Source: a virus. Taken from it: DNA of 20,156 nt. Shown piece after piece: positions 8,288 through 12,229 of this stretch (position 1 is the stretch's first letter; each line of letters opens with the position of its first letter). The stretch lies in the IMG/VR virus record IMGVR_UViG_3300021131_000067, positions 1 to 20,156 of that record; one strand, written 5' to 3'. The notes under the pieces are model-generated. The model was given only the letters and a program-made list of their open reading frames with translations, ran no database searches and was not told where the DNA came from. Position numbers and translations under genes: made by a program.

Positions 8288-8507
8288 TGTAATAAGGCAC
8301 TTTGTAAGGTTTACCGTTGACCACCACATTAATATAACCCTGTGGATTACTTGGAAGGTTTGCACTTCCTTTGGTCGCTGAGGTTGAGCTAGTGAAATTA
8401 AGGATATTTAAAAAGAATTGTTGCCATGCCCTTGTCGGTCTTTTCGTCTGTTCATCAATTAGTTCAACTTGAGGATATGGACTATTAGTTAAATTAATAT
8501 TATTCAA
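8280..8507 (-). CDS. 75-residue phage protein with TTG start
   Basis: There is no ATG near the start of this frame. The plausible start is the TTG at 8507, which overlaps the gp10-like stop as TTGA and has AGGTGA six bases upstream. The protein contains PYPQVELIDEQTKRPTRAWQ and QFFLNIL, and ends in NPQGYINVVVNGKPYKVPYY NV (VNGKPYKVPYYNV). Short proteins pairing a 'T-x-x-W-x-x-F' helix with this beta-hairpin ending seem familiar from podoviruses next to tail genes, but I know no function. The position just after gp10 corresponds to the tail needle gene of P22, although this protein is far too short to be a needle. Confidence 0.6.
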   Translation of the reverse strand: MNNINLTNSPYPQVELIDEQTKRPTRAWQQFFLNILNFTSSTSATKGSANLPSNPQGYINVVVNGKPYKVPYYNV

Positions 8508-10639
8508 TTTTCACCTACACTTGATTTAAGGTTAGCAGCCACGATGACCGCATTAATTGGATCAGTTACCACTAATTCAAATACTCGATCTCTAGTCATG
8601 CCTAATCTTCGCCAAATAGCACGATTCTTATATTTACCAATCTTACCAATACTTTTCCAATGCTCATTGGACCAAGTAGAGCCACCATCATCGGACCATC
8701 TCATCATGGCCTGTGGATCAGCTCCCACAGTTTCAACATTTAATGGAGTAGTAATGCCAGTTAAACCAACACCAGGCTGAAAGTACACTTGTAATTCATC
8801 AAAGTATTCACGTTGATAATCTGCCACTAAATGCGTTGTTCTTCTTAATCTGCGTATTGGTTGGCCATTATCTGTAAAATTAGTAGGGTCTAACTCGTAA
8901 ATATTACCATTTTGCCAATCGCCTACTAACATCATATTTTGAAAGTTAATACAACAATTACCACGATGACGATGGTACTGATTTAAATCATCACAATATA
9001 ACCACTTATGCCACATTTGAGTGGCTATATCGTAGCACCAAGTAATATCTAAACTAGGAAATGATAAAACATAAACCTCATGCCCACCTTGTTGATAAGT
9101 CCAAGCAATTGCATCACTTACATCCTGATTAATGAATGTGTTTTCGACTGCATGAGTAGAAATCCTCTGTGGAAAATATCCATTCATCATCACCACTTCA
9201 GCTTGACCACGAATATTCTTACTTAAATAAGCAAATGAATTACCTAGTCTTGCAACGCTAAACTTGGCAACGATTCCATGCTGACTTGATGAGCCTGGTA
9301 TTCTTTGAAATGGAAAAGGGAAAGAACCAACATCTGCCCAGACTTCAGAAGTAGTTTCGCCAAGTAGATAAACTTGTCCATGATCAGCAATTTGAGCCAC
9401 TAAATTATCCGGTCCGGTAAACTTACTAGCAAAACTTAATGCCGGAGTAATTGGACTGAGGATATTGGACGCTGCCCATTGTTGAGTATTAGGATTATTG
9501 TAAATAAAGTAATTGTCGACAACATCCACAGAGCTCGCGCCTGTAAACGCACCATCAGTCGTTGGTATTACAGAAAAATTTAACGCATACATTGTTTCAG
9601 AGCCAACAGTTTGACTATTATTAATTACATAATTACCTGTACCACCAGCACCAGTTCCAAAAGATAAAGTTAAGGTTAAACCTGTGCCACTTCCTGTGGT
9701 TGAAGTAGATACGTTATTTGTTGGGTTAGAAGTATAAGCACCCACATTCTGCACAGATAAGCCTGTAACTGCACCAGAGCCACCAATTGAAGTTACTGTA
9801 TAAGTCTGTGGTGTATTGCCATAAACACCCCCTAAAACTGTAATCGTGTCATTGACTGCATAACCTGTTCCTGCTGTTGCAATACTTTGGCTCAATACTG
9901 TGCCTGATCCATAAGTAGTAATAATCGTGTTTGCAGTTACTCCAGCACCTTGAATGGTTTGACCATTATAAATAACTCCACTTGTTGCAGTAACAGTTAA
10001 AGTAGTGCCGGACATCGATGCAGTTAAGGTGGAGGCCACTGCTGCTGAGTTCATTTGCTCTGTTGCAATCGTCAATGAAGTATTGATGGTGTATGTACCA
10101 ACTCCACCTGTTCCTGAGCCAAGTGCAGTAATCACGATTTCATTACCTACACCTAAACCAAATAATGATTGACCTACTGCTATTGTGCCAGACTGCATTA
10201 AAGACACAGTTAAAGTTGTTCCACTGATCGAACCTCTAAATATAGCCGATGCAGGATTACTAATTCGCCAAGTATAACGATAAGTACCATCAACAATATA
10301 GACGTTTTGACCATTATCGGTAATTCCTACAATACCTGATGAGGTATTTAATTGACCTACTAATGTTGGGGTTAGATTAGACGTTAAAACATAAACATAA
10401 GGGCCACAAACTGCAACAGCATATTGCCCACCACTAACAGTTCTCATTCCTCGCACTTCAGCCATTGCTGACAAAACTGCTTTAGCAGATAAGCCTGGCG
10501 TTGGATATAAGGCCACTACACCATTTTGACCGGCTTGTTTGGTGATATCTATTTCTGTACGAAAATTGATGCAATCTTCGCCATTGACATAAATCGATGG
10601 TGCAACATAGGAAGGGCCAACAAAGCCAAAGTCTGCCAT
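8504..10639 (-). CDS. Packaged DNA stabilisation / tail hub protein, gp10-like, with repeat insert
   Basis: The 711-residue protein matches the P22 gp10 type (Phage_stabilise family), a tail hub protein that closes the portal after packaging. Family-like sequence occupies residues 1-134 (SIYVNGEDCINFRTEID, VALYPTPGL, the YIVDGTYRYTW region) and 355-711 (VDVVDNYFIY, EVWADVGSFPFPFQRIPGS, HGIVAKFS, then a beta-propeller-like C-terminus with WSDDGGSTWS). Between them, residues 135-350 are Gly/Thr/Ser-rich repeats. Without that insert the protein would have about 495 residues, close to the 472 of P22 gp10. Its ribosome-binding site (AAGGAG) lies in the last codons of the homing endonuclease gene, whose stop it overlaps by one base (TAATG). 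Confidence 0.85.
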   Translation of the reverse strand: MADFGFVGPSYVAPSIYVNGEDCINFRTEIDITKQAGQNGVVALYPTPGLSAKAVLSAMAEVRGMRTVSGGQYAVAVCGPYVYVLTSNLTPTLVGQLNTSSGIVGITDNGQNVYIVDGTYRYTWRISNPASAIFRGSISGTTLTVSLMQSGTIAVGQSLFGLGVGNEIVITALGSGTGGVGTYTINTSLTIATEQMNSAAVASTLTASMSGTTLTVTATSGVIYNGQTIQGAGVTANTIITTYGSGTVLSQSIATAGTGYAVNDTITVLGGVYGNTPQTYTVTSIGGSGAVTGLSVQNVGAYTSNPTNNVSTSTTGSGTGLTLTLSFGTGAGGTGNYVINNSQTVGSETMYALNFSVIPTTDGAFTGASSVDVVDNYFIYNNPNTQQWAASNILSPITPALSFASKFTGPDNLVAQIADHGQVYLLGETTSEVWADVGSFPFPFQRIPGSSSQHGIVAKFSVARLGNSFAYLSKNIRGQAEVVMMNGYFPQRISTHAVENTFINQDVSDAIAWTYQQGGHEVYVLSFPSLDITWCYDIATQMWHKWLYCDDLNQYHRHRGNCCINFQNMMLVGDWQNGNIYELDPTNFTDNGQPIRRLRRTTHLVADYQREYFDELQVYFQPGVGLTGITTPLNVETVGADPQAMMRWSDDGGSTWSNEHWKSIGKIGKYKNRAIWRRLGMTRDRVFELVVTDPINAVIVAANLKSSVGEN
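9590..10030 (-). repeat. Second type A beta repeat in gp10-like gene, split by a nested unit
   Basis: Codons 204-247 encode the first half of a type A repeat (TASMSGTTLTVTATSG, YNGQTIQGAGVTANTIIT). Codons 328-350 encode the second half (GTGAGGTGNYVINNSQTV, ending GSETM). The roughly 80 codons in between (9659-9898) are a different repeat type, so the second type A unit has been interrupted. Confidence 0.7.
9659..9898 (-). repeat. Nested type B repeat unit within the gp10-like gene
   Basis: Codons 248-327 encode ATAGTGYAVNDTITVLGG, then a TYTVTSIGGSGAVTGLSVQN core, GAYTSNP and TGSGTGLTLTLSFG. The pattern 'GtGY-x-x-N/GDtitv-x-GG ... vt-x-l-x-v-x-n-x-G-x-Y-x-x-x-P' is a repeat I associate with environmental phage structural proteins. 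It breaks the second type A repeat near its middle. Confidence 0.65.
10049..10237 (-). repeat. Complete beta repeat (type A) inside the gp10-like gene
   Basis: Codons 135-197 encode [10 protein letters not shown] near the start, then a hydrophobic stretch ending AVGQSLFGLGVG, then GSGTGGVGTYTIN and a T-x-A-T-E-Q-M end. The unit resembles the insert in the gp4-like gene at 11789-11995, in the same order and with the same length between anchor motifs. It looks like an all-beta, surface-exposed domain. Confidence 0.75.
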
Positions 10640-11244
10640 TAAATAACTCCTTTATATCGTTCACCACGCCATATTTTATGTATGGTATTTTTGTGAACAT
10701 TAAATTTATTACCTAATTCAATATGAGTCATAATCCCTTTGTTGGCTCGAACAAATCTTACTTCGTCATCTGTTAATTTTGCAGTATTCTTGTTTCCAAG
10801 CAATCCTTTGCTAATTGCTTCACAATGTGATTCTGTTAATGGTTTTCCAATTCTGGCAATACTTATTTTTTCTTTGGTTTCATCTGTTAATTTAACCCCT
10901 TTACGAGGGCTTTGAACACCTTTACGCATTACACTCCATTTGCGTTTTTGGTCTTCAGAATGACTCATTGAATAGCCAGAACAACCTTCACCACCATTTG
11001 TTAAATTAATTAATTTGATACCACGCTTTTTATAAACATCAATACATTCCATTTCAGCTAAAAAAGCCAATTCTTCATCTAAATTATCTTTAATTATTTC
11101 AGATACAAATCCATGCTTCGCAACATAAAATTTCCAATATCTACCTCTTTTATTTGTATCAGAGTGACGCTTGTCTTTACCTTTTCCAACATAAAAAATA
11201 TTGTTAGTGTCTAATGCTCGATGTTGATAGATGTAATATTGCAT
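10639..11244 (-). CDS. Free-standing GIY-YIG homing endonuclease
   Basis: I chose the ATG at 11244 (201 residues) because the catalytic domain begins there and because it lies outside the gp4-like gene; a longer reading would start inside it. Residues 3-22 hold the YYIY ... FYVGKG pair of the GIY-YIG domain. KDKRH follows, then Glu64 and Glu66 in FLAEMECI, and LINLTNGGEGCSGY (78-91), typical of phage and intron-borne members. Residues 107-150 carry NUMOD3-like DNA-binding motifs (RKGVQSPRKGVKLTDETKEK, then ISIARIGKPLTESH). Residues 157-199 form a helix-turn-helix region (LTDDEVRFVRANKG, VHKNTIHKIWRGERYKGV). It probably nicks or cuts phage DNA lacking the insertion. No strong ribosome-binding site precedes the ATG. 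Confidence 0.88.
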   Translation of the reverse strand: MQYYIYQHRALDTNNIFYVGKGKDKRHSDTNKRGRYWKFYVAKHGFVSEIIKDNLDEELAFLAEMECIDVYKKRGIKLINLTNGGEGCSGYSMSHSEDQKRKWSVMRKGVQSPRKGVKLTDETKEKISIARIGKPLTESHCEAISKGLLGNKNTAKLTDDEVRFVRANKGIMTHIELGNKFNVHKNTIHKIWRGERYKGVI

Positions 11245-11257
11245 AAGTATATGATTC

Positions 11258-12229
11258 TTAACGAAAAAATCCGCCTGCGAGAACCCAACCGGCATCTTTC
11301 TGTCTACTACTTAATAACGCATCAGCAAACCTTGCATTCTGTACCGGCTTCATATTGGTGCGTTTAATAGTGCTTTTAGATTGTGCTGCGTAACTCTGAA
11401 TTAAACCAATTTGCGTTGGTGAGGCTTTGCCATACATAGGCATTAATCGTTCTGCTAAACACCATCTTAGGCACATATTGTAGCCTTGAGGTAAATTGAT
11501 CACATCGTTTTGATTTACAAATCTTGCTAAGATAGTATTCGCGAATAAGTGCATTTCACCTTGTGATGGATTAGGCCACACAAAGATATTACCAAGCGTT
11601 TCTGTTGGCTGATAATAAATTGCTTTAGGCCAAGGACCATTTAAAGTTTTAAGTCCAATCATTTCATAATTTTCAACGCTCAATACTGCACAAGGGTAAT
11701 CTAAGCCACCATTTAAAATTGGCTGACCATTACTGTTTGTATTGACTCGAACAAATGCAGTATCAATTACTAATGGTCTTTGGTAATAAGAATTGATTGT
11801 TGTAGAAGATGCAGTTTGACTAATATTAACTGTATATGTGCCTGCTTCATTAATATTGCCACCAGCACCAGTACCAAAGCCTACGATAGTAGTGCCATTA
11901 CTGATGCCTGAACCTGATAAGGTTTGGCCTAAAGCAATTGCACCACTCTGAATTGCAGTAATGGTTAAAGTTGTGCCGGAGATTGAGCCAGTAAAGACTG
12001 CACCAATCTGCCCACCTGGTCCAATTGTGTATTGCGTTTGTCCTGGTGTTACTGGAAAGATAATTTCAGTCTTATAGTAAATCATCATGGATTCATTAGA
12101 CCATTGATCTAACATATCATTAAGCATATCAAAGGCATCTTGTGCATCTTCAGGTGCAGGAGTTTCTCCAGCAGCCAAAGCACCAATATCTTTTAATGCT
12201 CTGCTAATTATGTCGATGGGCATTGTCAT
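11258..12229 (-). CDS. Tail accessory / head completion protein, gp4-like, with repeat insert
   Basis: The 323-residue protein resembles the P22 gp4 type, the first tail factor to bind the portal ring. The N-terminal part (residues 1-75) has [20 protein letters not shown], then [16 protein letters not shown] and a [15 protein letters not shown] turn, all typical of this family. Residues 79-147 are a type A beta repeat. Family sequence then resumes ([59 protein letters not shown]). It is longer than P22 gp4 (166 residues) even without the insert. The ATG at 12229 overlaps the preceding stop (ATGA) with AGGATGAAG upstream; an ATG two codons further in is possible. Confidence 0.8.
11789..11995 (-). 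repeat. Type A beta repeat inserted in the gp4-like gene
   Basis: Codons 79-147 encode [40 protein letters not shown], and [11 protein letters not shown]. The same motif order occurs in the gp10-like gene 1.5 kb downstream ([10 protein letters not shown] ... GQSLFGLGVG ... GTYTIN). Codon choice differs between the copies, so the relationship is at the protein level and not a recent duplication. Confidence 0.75.

Follow-up and report, generated by a model that had tools for sequence, protein, structure and literature searches.

The stretch of DNA analysed here, the 20,156-base virus record IMGVR_UViG_3300021131_000067 (the window), carries a P22-type morphogenesis cluster on its minus strand, and within this cluster a 201-codon GIY-YIG gene, a predicted homing endonuclease gene (HEG), is placed between a gp4-like and a gp10-like gene. 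In this work, we compare this gp4-gp10 slot with its counterparts in related phages and consider how the inserted gene may have come to hold the translation signal of its downstream neighbour. All genes at the locus are encoded on the minus strand, and the cluster also includes a P22-like coat protein (Pfam E 1.6e-35) and a scaffold protein (PHROG 8865). The gp4-like protein matches PHROG 637, head-tail adaptor Ad3, weakly (E 1.1e-4, residues 5-53 only) and Pfam SU10_adaptor with E 7.7e-8; a sequence search returned no credible solved relative for it (best E 0.63). The gp10-like protein matches PHROG 578, head closure Hc3, with E 1.4e-101. In P22 itself, genes 4 and 10 are neighbours, as an earlier sequence-only reading of this DNA had stated, and they overlap by 41 nucleotides (nt).

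The borders of the inserted gene agree with that reading to the base. The gp4 stop codon TAA occupies 11260-11258 and the HEG start codon ATG 11244-11242, so that the ATG begins on the 14th base after gp4, with 13 nt between them. The mechanical open reading frame opens further upstream, at 11295, inside gp4; relatives, however, are conserved only from MQYYIYQH onwards, which makes 11244 the likely start. At the other end, the HEG stop codon TAA (10641-10639) and the gp10 ATG (10639-10637) have one base in common, and the final HEG codons, AAA GGA GTT ATT TAA, hold the sequence AAAGGAG 7 nt from the gp10 ATG. The coordinates of all features are collected in Table 1.

Table 1. Features of the gp4-gp10 slot and its surroundings, in positions of the window.
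Feature	Position	Strand	Basis
gp4-like head-tail adaptor gene, upstream neighbour	11258..12229	-	PHROG 637, Pfam SU10_adaptor, P22 gene order
Last 60 nt of gp4, exchange tract accompanying the insert; putative homing-site region	11261..11320	-	pair and cluster comparison
Last 30 nt of gp4, part of the tract differing in 8/8 clusters tested	11261-11290	-	cluster comparison
13-nt leader, gp4 stop to HEG start, without Shine-Dalgarno or promoter-like site	11245..11257	-	
GIY-YIG homing endonuclease gene (HEG), predicted, 201 codons + TAA	10639..11244	-	open reading frame, PHROG 314, relatives
GIY-YIG nuclease domain, ~residues 1-85, R26 and E64 invariant	10990..11244	-	alignment, model
NUMOD3-like motif, residues 95-128	10861..10962	-	Pfam, sub-threshold here
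C-terminal helix-turn-helix domain, ~residues 154-198	10651..10785	-	model, profile match to HNH occupants
AAAGGAG, gp10 Shine-Dalgarno within HEG codons	10647..10653	-	
TAATG, HEG stop overlapping gp10 start	10637..10641	-	
gp10-like head closure gene, downstream neighbour	8504..10639	-	PHROG 578; solved relatives 7eeq, 9vyg

The gene had been taken for a homing endonuclease of the GIY-YIG type, and this identity is borne out by several lines of comparison. PHROG 314 (homing endonuclease) matches residues 1-176 with E 5e-23. LEM-3, the sole GIY-YIG Pfam model listed for the protein, falls below the cut-off, and NUMOD3 lies just below it in the window protein and above it in the relatives L164, L067, and L019. 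In an alignment of 10 sequences, R26 and E64 are invariant, and by equation with I-TevI we take them to be the catalytic pair. An AlphaFold2 model built from 10 sequences, weak overall with a mean pLDDT of 61, shows the element order strand-strand-helix-strand-helix, which is the order of GIY-YIG nucleases, followed by a C-terminal three-helix unit of better confidence. VIA-align matched residues 1-89 of this model to the PD-T4-3 restriction enzyme (Z 6.2), the I-TevI catalytic domain (Z 5.5), and the GIY-YIG domain of UvrC (Z 5.4), and the C-terminus to helix-turn-helix proteins such as the Tc3 transposase (Z 5.2); a search by sequence found no credible solved relative (one match, E 0.52). 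The protein thus has a separate DNA-binding region, made up of the NUMOD3 motif and the C-terminal helix-turn-helix. Across 12 chosen pairs (8 GIY, 4 HNH), dN/dS ranged from 0.10 to 0.33, which indicates purifying selection. An intron location was considered and rejected, since the gp4 and gp10 reading frames are whole on both sides of the gene and no Rfam family matched positions 10300-11600 up to E 1. The gene is therefore probably a free-standing GIY-YIG homing-type endonuclease gene, outside any intron or intein, whose product would cleave DNA and promote homing.

To place the window among its relatives, scans were made with gp4 (best 80 of 465 relatives), gp10 (best 80 of 226), and the endonuclease (all 31), which together with phage and own-genome records gave 188 loci (numbered with the prefix L), 160 of them holding both the gp4 end and the gp10 start. 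Since copies of one contig are included and the relatives are best-scoring subsets, the locus counts are not prevalences. Among the 160, the slot is empty in 107, holds a GIY gene in 27, an HNH gene in 10, another gene in 8, a 31-nt insert in 5, and a 335-nt remnant in 3. All 15 GIY loci of at least 62% identity from the endonuclease scan follow gp4, three of the contigs ending inside the gene; the ten loci L172-L181 (29-31% identity) show neither gp4 nor gp10 within the available stretch, and this placement check covered the endonuclease-scan loci other than L183-L188. A scan with the HNH occupant (best 80 of 262 relatives) yielded 47 distinct 3' ends, 45 of them in the gp4-gp10 slot and the remaining two between gp4 and the other slot gene. 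Taken as a whole, the HNH family extends beyond the slot, since distant relatives (<60%) occur in ~1,180 phage records. When 156 distinct loci (86 empty, 53 HNH, 17 GIY) were placed on a quick tree built from the gp4 body, parsimony required 33 changes between the empty, GIY, and HNH states. Mobility and the sharing of one slot are thus seen in the comparison, and the gp4-gp10 junction has the appearance of a homing hotspot in these relatives.

The sequence-only reading had named a different original occupant as a finding that would speak against insertion into an empty junction. The eight loci with another, non-nuclease gene in the slot (L033-L037, L097, L128, L131) do present such an occupant; their gp4 is only 67-79% identical to that of the window, so that there is no indication of an earlier, different occupant in the window's lineage. 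The protein encoded by this other gene starts with MASTTF or MTTTVF and has the appearance of a tail-fibre protein. Genes of this type also occur in L230 and L232, each behind an HNH gene.

Relatives without the insertion, whose comparison had been proposed as a way of defining the junction, do exist, and some differ from occupied relatives around the slot by the insertion and a short tract only. The clearest case is that of L066 (GIY) and L049 (empty), which show no difference between positions -540 and -60 of gp4 or in the opening 390 nt of gp10. The final 60 nt of gp4, by contrast, contain 17 differences, which alter the protein by a single Ser/Thr exchange. The L066 junction recurs in L064 and the L049 junction in L048 and L070, which are separately numbered assemblies; presence and absence at one site is accordingly seen between L066 and each of L048, L049, and L070 (600 nt upstream and 300-390 nt downstream compared). 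The window itself (GIY) and L007 (HNH) share flanks with identities of 95% over 600 nt and 99% over 300 nt.

The same pattern holds across backgrounds. In 34 pairs with discordant slot contents, forming 8 background clusters, gp4 identity averages 0.744 in the last 30 nt, 0.832 at -60 to -30, and 0.973 at -90 to -60, and the last 30 nt are at most 0.82 identical in all eight clusters. The 16 empty/empty clusters average 0.958 over the last 30 nt (p 1.4e-4 against the discordant clusters), and six pairs with the same HEG average 0.98 over the gp4 end. On the other side of the insert, the first 30 nt of gp10 are 0.985 identical in 22 discordant pairs (starts taken from protein matches) and 1.000 identical in 11 HEG/empty pairs with a background of at least 0.95. 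The last gp4 codon follows occupancy as well, being AGA in 64/75 empty, 5/48 HNH, and 4/14 GIY junctions; in 15 independent pairs drawn from the tree, it changed with occupancy in 8.3 pairs on average and against it in 0.1 (median p 0.008, range 0.004-0.07). Thus, a 30-60 nt gp4 end, altered mostly at synonymous positions, goes with the insert, and wherever a pair can be read cleanly the opposite edge coincides sharply with the gp10 ATG. The claim that the element had been fitted in without disturbing either gene holds for gp10, which matches from its ATG in the clearest pairs, and fails for gp4, whose last 30-60 nt are replaced. Such a one-sided tract fits co-conversion, and because it is short and one-sided it suggests a cut near the gp4 3' end; no co-converted sequence was seen on the gp10 side in the cleanest pairs.

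The second body of evidence concerns the gp10 Shine-Dalgarno. In 22 distinct empty junctions of the form TAATG or nearly so, gp4 overlaps or touches gp10, and gp4 codons contain the best gp10 Shine-Dalgarno; a short spacer mostly supplies it in 52 other distinct empty junctions. Since gp4 already overlaps or touches gp10 in the 22 junctions of the first kind, the overlap is not novel to the insert, and the HEG takes over the role of gp4. The location of this signal within HEG codons, noticed for the window from its AAAGGAG, extends to the relatives: at a distance of 4-13 nt from the gp10 ATG, all 49 distinct 3' ends (those of the window and of one remnant included) carry a core of the AGG or GGAG type; as raw counts, this is AAGGA or longer in 42, AAGGG in 3, a GGAG type in 2, and AGG in 2. 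The codon choice in this position is distinctive. In 48 protein clusters, the terminal Lys before Glu, Asp, or Gly is encoded by AAG in 40 and AAA in 5, while internal Lys codons in the same context and genes are AAG in 20 and AAA in 211 cases (Fisher p 1e-27 against the terminal ones). Two of the five terminal AAA cases encode Lys-Gly, where AAAGG itself is a signal, and where the terminal Lys is replaced the purine run is kept, as GGAGA (L054) or AAGGG (L254, L261). It was also asked whether the HEG gives gp10 a stronger Shine-Dalgarno than the empty alleles have, and this was rejected. In the four distinct junctions of the non-HEG slot gene, a spacer is present and the signal is weaker, at -3.4 to -4.0 kcal/mol.

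The occupants differ in how they would themselves be expressed. As had been remarked for the window, the endonuclease start is not preceded by a strong ribosome-binding site, and by pattern a Shine-Dalgarno is present in none of 10 distinct GIY leaders, against 34 of 39 distinct HNH leaders in the same slot. Promoter-like leaders (at least 9 of 12 matches) number 21/39 for HNH and 1/10 for GIY genes, and in 16 of the 39 HNH leaders the site is rarer than 1 in 10 shuffles. Eleven of the 39 carry near-consensus sigma-70 promoters (11-12 of 12 matches), for example L047, L193, L215, L249, L253, and L263; promoters in HNH leaders would also transcribe gp10. In the window, a promoter in the HEG leader was sought and none was found: between 10500 and 11500 the scan gave a single promoter-like site, which lies within the HEG, where shuffled sequences gave 4.2 on average, and it detected no terminator. 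Notable hairpins at the window junctions were likewise rejected (z -1.0 and -0.4). In L054, L164, and L165, the HEG ATG follows the gp4 stop codon as TAATATG, close to the position of gp10 in empty alleles.

Two further allele classes appear to be derived from occupied slots. The 335-nt remnant, found on three contigs (L108, L110, L111), is an HNH gene that has lost its N-terminal half and kept its 3' end. An insert of 31-34 nt, found on four contigs (L024/L148, L028, L029, L147), has an HNH-type gp4 end (AGG TGA), a left edge resembling some HNH elements (~15/20 bases shared with L193), and a right edge, TAAGGAATCTA, that occurs in HNH 3' codons. To judge from its edges, it is probably a deletion scar.

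Taken together, these observations are best explained, with a probability that we put at roughly 0.7, by a free-standing GIY-YIG homing element which re-supplies, and so would hold hostage, the translation signal of the essential gp10 gene. The endonuclease would cut HEG-free alleles near the gp4 3' end, and repair of the double-strand break from an occupied co-infecting genome would copy in the HEG together with the donor's last 30-60 nt of gp4. This copied end, mostly synonymous, may escape further cutting, and repair would rejoin on the conserved first codons of gp10. The HEG shows no promoter of its own and is probably expressed inefficiently from the gp4 message. With the HEG in place, gp10 is parted from a signal in or just after gp4, so that the HEG must bring a substitute, and the codons of its C-terminal Tyr-Lys-(Gly/Asp/Glu) would double as the gp10 Shine-Dalgarno, with its stop overlapping the gp10 start and translation of the two genes possibly coupled. 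The substitute would preserve the essential gene and make imprecise loss of the element costly, thereby favouring its retention; since such loss should be costly, occupants would be more easily replaced, by a GIY-YIG or an HNH gene, than removed.

Several points weigh against this explanation. The endonuclease activity of the protein is predicted; the structure model has low confidence, the Z values, at 5-6, are modest, and Foldseek alone gave no match to the model at E <=0.001 (best 0.004, PD-T4-3). Almost all of the near relatives are metagenome contigs, in which strain mixtures can misassemble, though the key junctions recur in separately numbered assemblies. Two of the 16 empty/empty clusters also diverge at the gp4 end (0.82, 0.77), and some backgrounds occur in both the discordant and the empty/empty cluster sets. 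Identity on the gp10 side is 0.73-0.77 in smaller pair classes, values that are probably explained in part by a start pattern shifting the gp10 start. The terminal-Lys codon test is uncorrected for descent. The mean Shine-Dalgarno energies in HEGs (-6.2 and -6.1 kcal/mol) are not stronger than that of the empty TAATG alleles (-7.1 kcal/mol), so that the HEG signal is a replacement and not a gain. Finally, in 11 of 12 hand-picked phage HEGs elsewhere, the next start lies within -40 to +17 nt of the HEG 3' end; since this kind of overlap is common in phages, the layout alone is ordinary. A terminal Lys-(Glu/Asp/Gly) was rejected as a general property of phage HEGs, most of those 12 ending otherwise; D478 (Lys-Glu) and RHph_Y1_10 (Lys-Gly) do have the terminal motif at the next start.

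In the strongest alternative, the Shine-Dalgarno within the HEG is incidental to dense gene packing and is no retention device, so that any gene in the slot would end in this way. We consider this somewhat unlikely. Overlaps are indeed common and the empty alleles have a signal of similar strength, but the terminal Lys is mostly AAG where internal Lys codons of these genes are mostly AAA, both the remnant and the probable scar keep the 3' end, and the four junctions with the non-HEG gene do not end in this way, having a spacer and the weaker signal described above. An incidental origin of the Shine-Dalgarno and its later retention are not exclusive.

Less probable still is passive carriage, in which the gp4-gp10 junction is a general recombination breakpoint of divergent phages and HEGs are carried along without cutting there. 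Nuclease genes are known at exchange boundaries in phages, according to one source (PMC10448857), and this alternative draws further on the endonuclease activity being a predicted one and on the two divergent empty/empty clusters. Against it, the stretch of gp4 that is exchanged is short, adjoins the insertion, and accompanies the insert in 8/8 clusters, while it is missing in 14/16 empty/empty clusters; the genes are under purifying selection, and this slot is where the near GIY and HNH relatives among those retrieved are located. Domestication of the HEG for virion assembly or DNA packaging, like HNH proteins beside terminases, is very improbable: the gene does sit in a late morphogenesis cluster, and such a role has been proposed for one HNH group of lactococcal phages (PMC12724721), but 86/156 distinct loci compared have an empty slot, and its occupants alternate between two nuclease families whose catalytic domains are unrelated.

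Within the preferred explanation of a homing element that holds the gp10 signal, the two kinds of occupant can be compared further. The profiles of the GIY and HNH occupants align over the C-terminal 47 residues only (hhalign probability 90, E 1.5e-6, 30% identity), and the aligned part ends in the Tyr-Lys motif. We infer, as the boldest step of this work, that the shared helix-turn-helix reads a common site; alternatively, it may be a generic domain of phage HEGs. In a more detailed scheme, which we offer tentatively and at less than even odds, one homing site would be read by the shared helix-turn-helix fused to either a GIY-YIG or an HNH nuclease, and the recoded gp4 end (conferring immunity) together with the gp10 Shine-Dalgarno codons would form a two-sided lock, so that occupants swap or scar and rarely return to a clean empty state. 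As a separate observation, L054 (2283-2840) contains a chimeric GIY gene, whose first 378 nt are 95% identical to L164 and in which 107 nt near the end are 90% identical to L068.

Some observations were made outside the slot. In Vibrio phage D478 (L004:3480-4004), an HNH gene with AAGGA among its last codons directly precedes a gp4-like gene and overlaps it by 4 nt. In Rhizobium and Proteus phages (L279:999-1018, L280:1044-1066), distant GIY relatives extend 20 and 23 nt into the beginning of the terminase large subunit gene. In the neighbouring proteins themselves, a module of ~70 amino acids is present in both gp4 (residues 76-148) and gp10 (residues 125-201); both copies match PHROGs 21413 and 38233, which are annotated as tail-fibre or unknown, and several gp10 matches in other phages fall into two pieces. 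This module looks like a decoration domain inserted into head-tail connector proteins.

Among known systems, I-TevI has the same GIY-YIG nuclease fold and a modular build with a C-terminal DNA-binding region; the window HEG differs from it in not lying in an intron. In T4 relatives, SegH and Hef reportedly replace mobC and mobE, a case of one slot taken by different HEGs; at the gp4-gp10 junction, the alternation is between GIY-YIG and HNH genes whose C-terminal domains are related, and it is seen in many distinct loci. The closest parallels are found in T4, for which a review (PMC2988022) covers GIY-YIG genes in intergenic positions, weak ribosome-binding sites, co-conversion, and cutting at sites distant from the insertion, as well as promoters of downstream genes inside HEGs that aid retention. 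The T4 Seg endonucleases described there resemble the present gene in being intergenic GIY-YIG enzymes, without an intron and with co-conversion of flanks, as proposed here, several of them lacking a promoter or a clear ribosome-binding site. Their cut sites lie hundreds or thousands of base pairs away (PMC2988022), whereas the 30-60 nt one-sided tract found here suggests a near cut, as in intron-encoded enzymes. In segG, segA, segE, mobB, and mobC, as here, the signal of the downstream gene lies inside the endonuclease gene, which in the T4 genes is said to favour retention (PMC2988022); those genes embed promoters, whereas the signal here is translational, a Shine-Dalgarno in the last codons.

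Loci with varying HEGs have also been described for the tape-measure introns of ICP1 (PMC10448857) and for the Skunavirus HNH slots H1-H11, with truncated remnants in the latter (PMC12724721). In the parts of these sources consulted, they resemble the present locus in their fixed slots, varying HEGs, and truncated remnants and differ in the phages and genes concerned; no statement on ribosome-binding sites was found in those parts. In the titles and abstracts of the open-licence literature covered, no report was found of an HEG in the gp4-gp10 slot or of an essential gene whose Shine-Dalgarno is held by an HEG. Four features seem to be new: the slot itself, its sharing by two nuclease families in many distinct loci, a short one-sided tract that predicts a near cut, and an embedded signal at the level of translation. 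One phage group thereby offers a natural allele series (empty, occupied, swapped, half-deleted, and probably scarred), with a codon-level signature that can be measured elsewhere and a concrete prediction of the cut site. A standing question is what maintains free-standing homing genes after all genomes have been invaded. One answer proposed for T4 lies in embedded downstream promoters, and the same logic would operate at the gp4-gp10 junction at the level of translation.

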